From positions 1-64,000 of the forward strand of contig JAPLGP010000055.1 of assembly GCA_026390075.1 (NCBI GenBank): a stretch of 64,000 nucleotides of DNA, given 5' to 3'. This document shows, piece by piece, positions 15,020-28,495 of the stretch; the first letter of the stretch is position 1, and the number at the start of each line of letters is the position of its first letter. The stretch is from Campylobacterales bacterium (GTDB taxonomy: Bacteria; Campylobacterota; Campylobacteria; Campylobacterales; Sulfurimonadaceae). The position numbers were made by a program, and so were the translations under genes. The notes beneath the pieces are model-generated. The model saw only the letters and a program-made list of their open reading frames with translations. It searched no databases and was not told where the DNA came from.

Positions 15020-15615
15020 TAAAGATATCTTATTTATTAGACTTCTTTCAAAACTCACTTGTTAGATTGCTTCACTGCGTTCGCAATGACAATCACTGCG
15101 TTCGCAATGACGGTCATTGCGAGGAGGAACGACGAAGCAATCTGAATCTTGCAAGTAGTTTATTAATTGTCATGCTTTTTTTTAGCGCATGTAGTGTGAA
15201 AAATTATGAGCAAACAAAAACAAAAGTTATCATCATAAAATCGCCGAAAATCAAGTTTGCAGATACTGGTTATGTGCGAAATAGTGATGAGAAAATCGAA
15301 CTTGAACTCTTTATGGCTGGGAAATGTATCGAAAAAATCAGCGTCAACCATCTTATCTGTGTGAGTGATGGGTGTATGAGCAAGTCTAGTTTTAACAAAG
15401 ATTATTTAAGTGCTTATTATGATGAAGATATTTTACAAAATATACTTTTAGGAACACCGATTTATGGCGGTAAAAATAGGGTAAAAACAGAAGATGGTTT
15501 TGAGCAAAACATAAAAGACGAGCATGTGGAAATAAGTTATAAAGTAATTCCACATGCCATACTATTTAAAGATAAAAAGAATAATATTATTTTTAATATA
15601 AAAGATACAGAGTAA
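15016..15615 (+). CDS. Lipoprotein with a palindromic repeat element inserted in its N-terminal coding region
   Basis: A 199-aa ORF whose start overlaps the PIN gene stop (ATGA). A hydrophobic segment (about 45-58) ends in LFFSAC, a lipobox with Cys59, so the mature part should be a lipid-anchored envelope protein. The stretch before the signal sequence (about residues 17-43) is coded by a repeat element and reads LLHCVRND...HCEEERRSN. The element is 78 bp, a multiple of three, and keeps the frame open. With so long and charged a leader it is unclear whether export still works. No other in-frame start with a usable signal sequence follows the element. The function of the mature domain is unknown. 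Confidence 0.65.
15065..15142. repeat. Palindromic repetitive element (REP/RPE-like) inside a coding region
   Basis: Ends are inverted: GATTGCTTC (15065-15073) and GAAGCAATC (15134-15142). Inside are two direct copies of CACTGCGTTCGCAATGAC (15073-15090 and 15094-15111, 21-bp period) followed by an inverted GTCATTGCGA (15113-15122). The same sequence class, translated as HCEE..SDEAI or HCVRND, is widespread as dispersed palindromic elements in many bacteria. This copy has inserted in the lipoprotein gene without breaking its frame. Confidence 0.85.
15548..15558 (-). repeat. GGCATGTGGAA motif copy near the 3' end of the lipoprotein gene
   Basis: Exact copy (TTCCACATGCC on the plus strand), read as Pro-His-Ala. 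A one-mismatch inverted partner (AGCATGTGGAA) lies 6 bases upstream at 15531-15541. Confidence 0.85.
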
Positions 15616-23793: not shown

Positions 23794-26088
23794 ATGGAAA
23801 AATTAATACATTTTACAATTGACGGTATCTCTGTAGAAGCTAAAAAAGGCGAAACTATTTTAACCGTAGCTCGCAAAAATGATATCTACATACCTACTAT
23901 GTGTTATATCTCTAAAACAACTCCTTGTGCATCATGTCGCATGTGTGTTGTAGAAGTCAAAGGCGTTGAAGGGTTTGTGCTTAGTTGTAATACGCCTCCA
24001 GTTGAGGGCATTGAAATAACAACAAATACAAAAGAACTTGAAAATGAGCGAACAAACATCATGAAGCTTTATGATGTAAACCATCCTCTAGAGTGTGGTG
24101 TTTGTGATAAATCAGGCGAATGTGACCATCCTCTAGAGTGTGGTGTTTGTGATAAATCAGGCGAATGTGACTTGCAAAATAAAACTTTAGAATTTGGTGT
24201 TTCACAGCAAAACTTTAGTGCGCGTGACCAAGCTCGTAAAATAGAGCATTGGGGGTTAATTAATTATGACCCATCTTTGTGTATTTTATGTGAAAAGTGT
24301 GTGCATGTTTGTAATGAAGTGATAGGCGATGATGCTATAGAAGTGAAGTTTGGCGGATATAGCTCGACTATTATTCCTAAAAACAGTGATACTTTAGATT
24401 GTACTTTTTGTGGAGAGTGTATCGCAGTTTGTCCTGTGGGTGCATTGGTTAGCTCAGATTTCAAATATAGTGCGAATGCTTGGGAACTTAGTCGTGTACC
24501 CGCTACATGCGCACACTGTTCTGGCGGATGTTCATTAGAGTATGAAACTCGGCATGTGGGAATCAATGGGAATGCTTCAATTTATAGAGTAAAAAATAAT
24601 TTTGAATTTTCATCACTCTGTGGAGCTGGTCGTTTTGGTTTTGACTTTGACAACCATGCACTCAGAGATGAACACGCATTTCTTTTAGCTATCAAAGCAA
24701 TTCAAAGTGCAAAAGCAATTCGTTTTTCATCGATGATAACAAATGAAGAGACGCATATTTTACAACTTTTAAAAGAAAAACTTGGTATCAAATTATTTAA
24801 CGAAGATGCAAGAGTGTATCAAGAATTTATGAAAGCATACAGTTCTATAAGTGGTAAAAAACATCACAGTGGTTCACTTGATGCAATTAAACTCTCCGAT
24901 GCAGCCATTATAATTGGGAGTAGAATTGCAACGGATAATCCAGCTGTGCGATATGCTCTCACAACTGCTGCTAAACATAATGGTGCAAAAGTTGTTTATG
25001 CGCATCCGATAGAAGATGCTCTAATACAAAATACAGTGACGCAGTTTATGAAGTATGAAGTAGGCACAGAAGAGGGCGTTATGGCACTTTTGGCAAATGC
25101 AATACTTAAAGATGCTGATTTGTCTCAGGAAGAGAGAGCTTTTTTTGATGCACTCGATTTAGGGTATCTTGAAGCTGAAAGCAACATTGGACATGAAGAA
25201 ATTTCTTTGATGATGCACTCATTTGCAAGAGCCAAAAATCGTGTACTTATCATAGGAAATGATTTAATAGCGCACGAGAGAGCTTTAAACATTGCTAAAT
25301 TATCTGCTTTGATTGAAAAATATAGCGACTTCTCTTTAGTTATTGTGCCAAATGAAGTGAATACTTTAGGCGTATCATTAATCGCTGATTTGGATAAAGA
25401 TGAAGATATCATTGATGTCGTTGGATATAACGCAAAAGGTAATTTTATAATCTCATCTTTAAAGTTTGCGAATCTGGCAGTTGCATCTTTGAATCAGCAA
25501 GAAGGAACTTTTGTAAGTATCGATAACAGAGTGCTTCCTACAAATGTTGCAGTTGCCTTTAACGGATATACACTCAATGAATTAGCTTCGGCATGTGGAA
25601 TTGTGAGTCAAAACAGTATTGATTATACGACTAAGTTAAATAAAAATTCAGGATTTAAAAATATTGGTTTTGATTTTTTAGAAAATTTCTTATCTCCACA
25701 TGGAGATGATAATCGAGGTTATCTTCTTGATGAAGTAACATGTAAAATGAACGGTGCGATAGAATCAGTAGAGGATTTACCAGAATTTAATGGTACGGTA
25801 ATTTACCATTCAAATCCAGTTTTACAGTTTAATGCTTATACAAACATAGCAAAACAGCTTGAAAAGGATAATGCTCTAAGAGGTTCAGCTCAGTTTGCAG
25901 CGGCAGCAAAAATTTCTGATGGAGATAGGATTGAGATACAATTTGGTTCTAAAATGATTGCTAGAGAGTTTAAACTAGATAGCACTTTAAAAGGTACAAT
26001 AGCACTCAATCCTGTGTTTGATGATGTTGTAGATGCTAGTAGATATAAATTTGAAAAATCCAAAATAATGAGAGTATCACATGAGTGA
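23794..26088 (+). CDS. nuoG1: NADH-quinone oxidoreductase subunit G, first copy, with duplicated Fe-S motif
   Basis: A 764-aa iron-sulfur subunit of the peripheral arm. Order of motifs: [2Fe-2S] cysteines in CYISKTTPCASCRMCVVE (about 30-45), the His/Cys motif HPLECGVCDKSGEC present twice in tandem (residues 97-111 and 112-126), two [4Fe-4S] motifs (CILCEKCVHVC, CTFCGECIAVCP), and CAHCSGGC, followed by a molybdopterin-oxidoreductase-like body. The start at 23794 is set by AGGAGG at 23781-23786; the ATG at 23788 is only one base away and an earlier ORF start lies inside nuoF. It overlaps nuoG2 by eight bases. Confidence 0.92.
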   Translation: MEKLIHFTIDGISVEAKKGETILTVARKNDIYIPTMCYISKTTPCASCRMCVVEVKGVEGFVLSCNTPPVEGIEITTNTKELENERTNIMKLYDVNHPLECGVCDKSGECDHPLECGVCDKSGECDLQNKTLEFGVSQQNFSARDQARKIEHWGLINYDPSLCILCEKCVHVCNEVIGDDAIEVKFGGYSSTIIPKNSDTLDCTFCGECIAVCPVGALVSSDFKYSANAWELSRVPATCAHCSGGCSLEYETRHVGINGNASIYRVKNNFEFSSLCGAGRFGFDFDNHALRDEHAFLLAIKAIQSAKAIRFSSMITNEETHILQLLKEKLGIKLFNEDARVYQEFMKAYSSISGKKHHSGSLDAIKLSDAAIIIGSRIATDNPAVRYALTTAAKHNGAKVVYAHPIEDALIQNTVTQFMKYEVGTEEGVMALLANAILKDADLSQEERAFFDALDLGYLEAESNIGHEEISLMMHSFARAKNRVLIIGNDLIAHERALNIAKLSALIEKYSDFSLVIVPNEVNTLGVSLIADLDKDEDIIDVVGYNAKGNFIISSLKFANLAVASLNQQEGTFVSIDNRVLPTNVAVAFNGYTLNELASACGIVSQNSIDYTTKLNKNSGFKNIGFDFLENFLSPHGDDNRGYLLDEVTCKMNGAIESVEDLPEFNGTVIYHSNPVLQFNAYTNIAKQLEKDNALRGSAQFAAAAKISDGDRIEIQFGSKMIAREFKLDSTLKGTIALNPVFDDVVDASRYKFEKSKIMRVSHE
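24082..24171 (+). repeat. Perfect 45-bp tandem duplication inside nuoG1
   Basis: Two identical 45-bp units (24082-24126 and 24127-24171), each coding the 15 residues HPLECGVCDKSGECD. The frame is kept. NuoG2 and other NuoG proteins have one unit. Complete identity suggests the duplication is very recent or a sequencing/assembly artefact. Confidence 0.95.
24551..24559 (+). repeat. GGCATGTGG motif core in nuoG1
   Basis: Nine-base core followed by GAA in place of AA. It codes His-Val-Gly on the gene strand. Confidence 0.7.
25590..25600 (+). repeat. GGCATGTGGAA motif copy in nuoG1
   Basis: Exact 11-base copy coding Ala-Cys-Gly. Confidence 0.85.
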
Positions 26089-28495
26089 AATTACTATAAA
26101 TATTGATGGAAAAGAGATAAAAACGCAAGAGGGCGAGTATCTGTTAAATGCTGCTCGTGCGAATGATATTTTTATTCCTGCAATATGTTATTTAACGAGA
26201 TGTAGCCCAACATTAGCTTGTCGTATTTGTCTTGTTGAAGTGGATGGAAAACAGGTGTATGCTTGTAATGCAAAAGCTAAAGATGGGATGAATATCACAA
26301 CAACTACGGATGCAATTAAGTCAGAGAGACGCGCTATCATGGAAGTTTATGATGTGAATCATCCTCTTCAATGTGGTGTTTGTGACCAGTCGGGTGAATG
26401 TGAACTACAAAACTATACTTTAGAAATGGGTGTCGATTCTCAAAGCTACAGCATCAAAGATGTTGAAAGAAAAGATAAGGATTGGGGACATATTCACTAC
26501 AATCCAGGTCTTTGTATTGTTTGTGAGCGATGTGTCACTGTTTGTAAAGATATGATTGGAGATAACTCTCTAAAAACTGTTCCTCGTGGTGGAGATGCAC
26601 TTGACGCTGAGTATAAAGATTCTATGCCAAAAGATGCATACAGCATGTGGAATAAACTCAATAAATCTCTTATTGGTTTGACATCAGGTGAAGAGATGTT
26701 GGATTGTACTTCGTGTGGAGAGTGTGCTTCTGTCTGTCCAGTTGGTGCTTTAGTAGATACACATTTTATATATAAATCGAATTCATGGGAACTCAAACAA
26801 ATTCCAGCAACTTGTGGACATTGTAGCGCGGGATGCCAAATCTCTTATGATGTGAAACATGCAAGTATTGCAAATCCTGAAGATAAAATCTATCGTGTTA
26901 TGAACGAATGGAACTATGTTTCACTTTGTGGTGCTGGAAGATACGGATTTGATTATGAAAATGCAAATGTAACAAAAGATGAAGTCGCATTTCATAAAGC
27001 AGTTGAGGCATTTAAAAAAGCGGATACAATCAAATTTACTTCAACTATTACGAATGAAGAAGCGTTGATTTTAGAAAAACTAAAAGAGAACTTTGGCTAT
27101 AAACTTGTAAATAACGAAGCATTGGCATTTCAAACATTTTTGAAAGATTATTCACAAATCAGCGGGACTTCTCTTTATGGAAGTAATTTAAAAGAAATTG
27201 CTCAGAGTAACTTTATAGTTTCAGTTGGAACTGCAATTAAAAGTGACAATCCTAATGCAAGATATTCACTCAATAACTCATTAACTGTAAATAAAGGTGC
27301 AGCTCTTCAAGAAGAGAGCGTTTTATATCTTTTACTTGATTTGTTCGCAGATAAAGAGAAATTGCCATCAGAAATAAGTGCGTATTTAAAAACATTTCAC
27401 GCAACTAAAACTATAACTGTTGAAGAGACTATCAAAGAAACAATCATTGAAATAGTAAAAACTATGAAAATGAATGAAGAAACAGGACTTGAAGAAGAAG
27501 TTGAAGAAGAAAAATCTAAAATAGTTCCTAAAAAAATCTCTAAAGAGGTAGAAGTGGATGATAACAAACTCTTTGAACTTGTTGGAGCACCGAAAGATTT
27601 TAGTGAAACTTTAGAGAAATTACTTGCTAAAAAAGACTCCTTTTCTTTGGTTGTTGGAGCTGATTTATACGCACATCCACATGCCAAGAATTTGGCGCGT
27701 TTAGTGGCTTTGATTGAAAAATATAGTGAATTTAAACTTGTTATGATTCCATCTTTAACAAATTCGTTAGGTGTTGCGCTTATAAATGAATTATCTAGTG
27801 ATGAAGGTAAATATTCTATCGGTTATAACACAAAAGGCGATTTCACACTCTCCGCTTTAGGCGATGGAGATTTCCACATGCCAGCTATGAACCAGCAAGA
27901 GGGAACTTTAACTTCGATTAATAAGCGTGTAAACCCAACAAATGCTGCACTTTCTTATGGTGGGTATGAGTTAAATGATATCGCTTCTGTTCTTGGAATT
28001 GTTGCGAAAAATACTATTGATTATACTCGTGAGCTTCCAACGGCAAAAGGCTTTAAAGCCCAAAAGTTTGACACATTGCCAAATCATTATACAAATTCAG
28101 GTGAAGAAGTTCGTGGGTATGAGCTAGAAAATCTAGCAGTTCCACATGCCGAAGATGAGAGTGTGGAAAAAATCGATAGTTCTTTATCTCTGGGAGAGAG
28201 TTTGATTTATCTTGTAAATCCTGTACGACAATTCAGTGTGTTTACAAATAAAGCTACCAATCTTGATGAGGTAAGCGGTGTTTATATGAGTGAAGAATTT
28301 TTAAGTAAATCTGATTTCAATGAGGGTGAAAGTGTGCGTATCAAAAGCGATAAAGGCGAGTTAGTTGCTACAATCGTGAGTGATAATAAAATAGCTGGTA
28401 ACATAGTATGTATGCCAACTTTTGATAGTAAATTAAATTCAGAGGTTCTGTTTAGCGGGTATCGCTTTACTTCAGCTTCGATAGAAAGGGTGTAA
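26081..28495 (+). CDS. nuoG2: NADH-quinone oxidoreductase subunit G, second copy
   Basis: An 804-aa paralogue of the preceding gene with a single His/Cys motif (HPLQCGVCDQSGECE). It has [2Fe-2S] cysteines (CYLTRCSPTLACRICLVE), two [4Fe-4S] motifs (CIVCERCVTVC, CTSCGECASVCP) and CGHCSAGC. A highly charged segment of about 55 residues (about 437-495, rich in Glu/Lys, containing GLEEEVEEEKSK) interrupts the body and is absent from nuoG1. Paired nuoG genes are known in Sulfurimonas-type complex I, and both products probably belong to one extended electron-input arm. Three motif copies lie in its 3' third. Confidence 0.92.
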   Translation: MSEITINIDGKEIKTQEGEYLLNAARANDIFIPAICYLTRCSPTLACRICLVEVDGKQVYACNAKAKDGMNITTTTDAIKSERRAIMEVYDVNHPLQCGVCDQSGECELQNYTLEMGVDSQSYSIKDVERKDKDWGHIHYNPGLCIVCERCVTVCKDMIGDNSLKTVPRGGDALDAEYKDSMPKDAYSMWNKLNKSLIGLTSGEEMLDCTSCGECASVCPVGALVDTHFIYKSNSWELKQIPATCGHCSAGCQISYDVKHASIANPEDKIYRVMNEWNYVSLCGAGRYGFDYENANVTKDEVAFHKAVEAFKKADTIKFTSTITNEEALILEKLKENFGYKLVNNEALAFQTFLKDYSQISGTSLYGSNLKEIAQSNFIVSVGTAIKSDNPNARYSLNNSLTVNKGAALQEESVLYLLLDLFADKEKLPSEISAYLKTFHATKTITVEETIKETIIEIVKTMKMNEETGLEEEVEEEKSKIVPKKISKEVEVDDNKLFELVGAPKDFSETLEKLLAKKDSFSLVVGADLYAHPHAKNLARLVALIEKYSEFKLVMIPSLTNSLGVALINELSSDEGKYSIGYNTKGDFTLSALGDGDFHMPAMNQQEGTLTSINKRVNPTNAALSYGGYELNDIASVLGIVAKNTIDYTRELPTAKGFKAQKFDTLPNHYTNSGEEVRGYELENLAVPHAEDESVEKIDSSLSLGESLIYLVNPVRQFSVFTNKATNLDEVSGVYMSEEFLSKSDFNEGESVRIKSDKGELVATIVSDNKIAGNIVCMPTFDSKLNSEVLFSGYRFTSASIERV
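27676..28150 (-). repeat. Three GGCATGTGGAW motif copies in the 3' third of nuoG2
   Basis: Copies in minus orientation at 27676-27685 (read Pro-His-Ala), 27872-27882 (Phe-His-Met-Pro) and 28140-28150 (Pro-His-Ala). The next copy downstream is more than 10 kb away. Confidence 0.85.

Follow-up and report, generated by a model that had tools for sequence, protein, structure and literature searches.

The stretch of DNA analysed here, called the window, comprises 64,000 nucleotides and is part of contig C37 (109,862 bp) of the draft genome of a Sulfurimonas-type bacterium (2.40 Mb in 61 contigs). Between 18.6 and 36.0 kb the window carries a nuo operon, which consists of nuoA, nuoB, nuoC, nuoD, a gene for a NuoF-GltD-like protein, nuoG1, nuoG2 and nuoH to nuoN. 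At the position of nuoE and nuoF there is one protein, in which a NuoF-type 4Fe-4S domain is fused to a GltD-like flavoprotein. Two nuoG genes are also present in other Sulfurimonas. NuoG1 matched the NCBIfam equivalog NF006305 with 916 bits (cut-off 591) and its domains, all above curated cut-offs, follow each other in the order N-terminal 2Fe-2S domain, N5 region and ferredoxin-like dicluster (Pfam Fer2_4, NADH-G_4Fe-4S_3 and Fer4_Nqo3; PF13510, PF10588 and PF22117).

Within nuoG1, Tandem Repeats Finder detected a perfect repeat (period 45, 2.0 copies, 100% matches, 0% indels), which was also found by an exact finder and is visible directly in the sequence. The doubled unit is in frame and encodes HPLECGVCDKSGECD, of the form HxxxCxxCxxxxxC. 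The two units show no base difference, and both retain all four ligands and the reading frame. The exact match exceeds two units by 2 bases (AC), which makes the true breakpoint ambiguous by 2 bp; the repeat is flanked by GATGTAAACCATCC on the left and GAATGTGACTTGCAAAAT on the right. Chance is excluded as the origin of such a match, about 1e-18 occurrences being expected in 64 kb. Copy 2 is part of the best Pfam NADH-G_4Fe-4S_3 stretch (residues 111-139). In E. coli NuoG, HxxxCxxCxxxxxC is the proven ligand set of cluster N5 (Nakamaru-Ogiso et al. 2008, PMC2533800). NuoG1 has two tandem N5 motifs, against one in each related NuoG1 read. An earlier note on this DNA had described a perfect in-frame 45-bp doubling, containing the His and three Cys ligands of a complex I cluster, with one unit only in NuoG2. 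All of this is confirmed: the interval 24082-24171 corresponds to this repeat, set in codon register, the ligands are those of N5, and NuoG2 has the single motif HPLQCGVCDQSGEC.

Table 1. Coordinates of the features discussed. Positions are those of the window unless a contig or a locus (L) is given.
Feature	Position	Strand	Basis
NuoF-type 4Fe-4S/GltD-like fusion protein, 666 aa	21782-23782
nuoG1, complex I subunit G, 764 aa (ATG at 23794), first of two tandem nuoG	23794..26088	+	NCBIfam NF006305, Pfam
45-bp unit present twice in tandem without mismatch; match continues for 2 further bases (92 bp)	24080..24171	+	Tandem Repeats Finder, exact finder
Copy 1 in codon register, residues 97-111, N5 ligand motif	24082..24126	+	sequence/translation
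Copy 2 in codon register, residues 112-126, same residues as copy 1, then the usual LQNKTLEF	24127..24171	+	sequence/translation; Pfam
nuoG2, second NuoG, 804 aa	26081..28495	+	NCBIfam NF006305 at 1118 bits
Single N5 motif of NuoG2	26360..26401	+	sequence
Acetate kinase gene (ackA), 60-bp duplication, in frame, doubles AIGHRVVHGGEEFKNATVIN, over GHRVVHGG	contig C52, L167 1024-1143
PBP1A gene, 66-bp duplication, in frame, doubles 22 residues in GT51 glycosyltransferase domain	contig C40, L155 9945-10077
dCache-HAMP-GGDEF protein gene, 23-bp duplication, frameshift	contig C31, L146 3161-3207
Adhesin-like repeat protein gene, 65-bp duplication, frameshift	contig C15, L130 15481-15610
N5 motif with in-frame TAG, sister species (genome G004)	L020 1786-1845
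Dispersed palindromes	L131 7918; L143 6568; L147 15889; L149 6423 and 16954; L155 1549; L169 14771; L219 6611; L227 3540; L229 13196
Partial palindrome units as short arrays	L157 19025; L136 13815
Dispersed intergenic repeats, in places as short tandem arrays	15072-15111; L127 10549-10686; L148 8032-8135

Using a degenerate DNA pattern, we found the doubled junction in 1 of 135 genus genomes and in 1 of 397 phylum genomes, each time only in the window's own, which leaves 0 of 134 other Sulfurimonas and 0 of 396 others in the phylum. The sole doubled motif among 109 loci from relatives was again the window's own, every NuoG1 read having one unit, and neither a diverged nor a conserved counterpart was found anywhere in the genus genomes, phylum genomes and relatives' loci searched. 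The nuoG1 doubling is private to one assembly. Unit and flanks are strongly conserved: the nearest single-copy relative differs from the unit at one of 45 bases, and an alignment of 37 sequences shows hardly any variation in the second copy and its flank. The exception in form among the relatives is locus L020 of genome G004, from a sister species, in which an in-frame TAG stands at the codon before the first Cys of the N5 motif (HPL*CGVC). Its ackA match likewise has an in-frame TAA, and given these two stops the consensus sequence of this genome may be poor.

We sampled 1.44 Mb of the 2.40-Mb assembly in stretches for perfect tandem pairs, low-complexity arrays and dispersed intergenic repeats being left out of the duplication set. 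In this sample five genes, nuoG1 included, each have a perfect tandem duplication of 23 to 66 bp in exactly two copies (hence at least five in the assembly). None of the five repeats is as long as 141 bp. Three keep the reading frame (P = 0.21 if there is no selection) and two break it; the 23-bp duplication cuts the GGDEF domain short at position 114 of a 161-position profile. PF00912 (GT51) is represented in this genome by the PBP1A gene alone, and the duplication in that gene lies inside the PF00912 domain. Aligned genus sequences, the genome's own included, showed a clean 20-residue insertion in AckA (20 sequences) and a clean 22-residue insertion in PBP1A (25 sequences) only here and the single form otherwise; solved structures of AckA and PBP1A homologues likewise have the single form. 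The 65-bp duplication of the adhesin-like gene sits within natural 192-bp repeats and is the least clean of the five. The nuoG1 doubling is not a special case: such duplications are scattered regardless of gene or frame. The option, listed in the earlier note, that the subunit gained spare ligands is unsupported, the doubling being private, with no counterpart, and one of at least five duplications of which two destroy the frame.

As controls we used 1.51 Mb of other Sulfurimonas DNA, made up of sequence from four other Sulfurimonas genomes (0.69 Mb), of nuo loci (0.62 Mb) and of loci with ackA or the PBP1A gene (0.21 Mb). These contained no perfect two-copy tandem pair with a period of 20 bp or more. 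The comparison of five duplications in the assembly with none in the controls gave p = 0.028, or p = 0.057 (four against none) when the adhesin case was omitted, suggesting a modest excess of duplications over the controls.

Other repeats were seen in this genome. Perfect palindromes with the half-site TTCCACATGCC/GGCATGTGGAA are dispersed across it in two arrangements (e.g. TTCCACATGCCATGGCATGTGGAA) and are absent from the controls; partial units form short arrays, and the palindromes may be a REP-like element. Intergenic repeats of the TTCGCAATGAC / TCATTGCGAGG type are also dispersed and form short tandem arrays in places. Many contigs break in copies of one repeat (ATCAGGAATCATCAATTCAGACATTTATAAG...), at the ends or starts of C4, C6, C12, C22, C26, C29, C36, C45, C46, C55 and C56, and this repeat is probably a multicopy mobile element.

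The junctions of the five duplications were then considered together with candidate causes. The extra match at the junctions is 2, 0, 1, 0 and 1 bp, the level expected without any homology. Replication slippage between short repeats requires about 3 bp or more, and since the ends share only 0 to 2 bp, ordinary slippage does not explain the set. Loss of the 5' nuclease of DNA polymerase I leads to short duplications; this mutator is unsupported here, as the 5' nuclease domain of PolA matched its Pfam family almost from end to end and is not interrupted by a stop codon. Crosstalk of nuoG1 with nuoG2 or with other parts of the genome was discarded, since the matches of the nuoG1 region to the rest of the sample do not exceed 15 bp. 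Inverted chimeras of the MDA type were discarded as well, since there is no excess of long inverted repeats except for the dispersed palindrome, of 24-27 bp. The three short N runs (8, 22 and 38 N) do not coincide with any duplication, which argues against scaffolder joins at N gaps. It is unlikely that the lineage has an active process making tandem duplications of about 20 to 70 bp without junction homology and hitting core genes (nuoG1, ackA and the PBP1A gene); if it existed, such a process would be a mutator unlike ordinary slippage.

The assembly itself bears marks of its making. Contig ends overlap by exactly 141 bp at many places, and by 99 bp in one pair, and these 141-base overlaps indicate a short-read de Bruijn assembly. 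Both 141 and 99 are default k values of MEGAHIT, and several sister contigs are named in the k141_ style of MEGAHIT; the assembler was probably MEGAHIT and the draft genome is possibly a metagenome bin. We give a probability of about 0.55 to the reading that the 45-bp doubling arose as an artefact, during short-read assembly or library making, and is absent from the chromosome of the organism. The junctions would then stem from a wrong path, taken for instance in a step of local assembly or through chimeric reads, and the true nuoG1 would have one N5 site and encode a NuoG1 working like its relatives. This reading is favoured by the occurrence of similar events, all private, elsewhere in the same assembly regardless of frame, and by the nature of the affected genes, which are conserved or single-copy (AckA, PBP1A, NuoG1) with the single form in all relatives; junction homology at the chance level and the overlaps of 141 and 99 bp between contig ends also speak for it. 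Against it, the excess over the controls is modest, the contig is unbroken at the nuoG1 repeat and, the repeats being shorter than 141 bp, a true duplication could have been represented intact in the final graph. An assembler step inventing the junctions is only a candidate, and our literature searches for a published description of exactly such an assembler artefact found nothing specific.

It is quite possible, at rather under even odds, that the doubling is instead a genuine fresh tandem duplication in the strain or population, undiverged, neutral or harmful, with other fresh ones elsewhere in the genome. NuoG1 would then build one N5 cluster with one of its two loops, or be impaired. The identity and the frame of the copies fit such an event, the proportion of in-frame cases (three of five) is compatible with it, and honest reads would assemble a 92-bp repeat at k=141. 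Moreover, perfect short in-frame tandem duplications arise in bacteria within a selection experiment, as in Neisseria rpmH (PMC8758062). However, several independent fixations would be required, in genes that are conserved or occur once, among them the one that encodes the only PF00912 glycosyltransferase domain, the junctions lack the microhomology of the usual slippage route, the PolA nuclease domain appears complete and uninterrupted, and no other searched Campylobacterota genome has the doubling. A functional gain, with both HxxxCxxCxxxxxC loops in use, either for a second [4Fe-4S] site or to give N5 alternative ligands, and with selection for the doubling, is very improbable. The four ligands and the frame are kept in both units, and the motif is the one proven for N5 in E. 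coli (PMC2533800), yet the doubling is found in no relative, the copies are identical to the base and hence give no sign of selection, and equal duplications, some frame-breaking, occur in unrelated genes of the same assembly. Structure prediction did not speak in its favour either: AlphaFold2 gave a pLDDT below 50 for the Fe-S region in the doubled NuoG1 and in a single-copy relative alike, with no confident placement in either form. An assembly error or a passing mutation is more likely than a spare-ligand enzyme because at least four similar fresh doublings lie in unrelated genes, some of which they break. Most likely, then, the nuoG1 doubling is either an artefact or an unselected fresh duplication; the earlier note was right to list an assembly error and a fresh copy-number variant among its options.

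If the doubling is real, a second complete loop is inserted between the helix ending in YDVN and the LQNKTLEF segment. Our modest expectation would be one cluster on either loop, the other loop staying idle; if it were also functional, NuoG1 would offer a natural test of an extra or alternative N5 site in complex I. Should the duplications as a set be real, the genome would be a lead on a homology-free duplication process. As the evidence stands, the case is a warning that private, perfect in-frame tandem duplications in conserved enzymes of a draft genome need checking against the same assembly. The rest of that assembly should be checked first because such a duplication may be one of many.

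Compared with known systems, NuoG1 resembles the NuoG / Nqo3 / 75-kDa subunit of complex I in domain order, operon position and ligand motif, and differs in carrying the N5 motif twice back to back, where all relatives carry it once. In the epsilon-Nuo of Campylobacterota nuoEF is replaced (PMC6682613); the operon described here is likewise without classical nuoE and nuoF, and differs in having the NuoF-GltD-like protein at that place together with two nuoG genes. Misassembled contigs hold a higher share of short tandem repeats according to metaMIC (PMC9661791); exactly this class of error is not described there. The duplications of Neisseria rpmH (PMC8758062) are, like that of nuoG1, short, in frame and in tandem; those were confirmed by Sanger sequencing and transformation and have a selective cause, whereas the nuoG1 doubling is known from the assembly alone.
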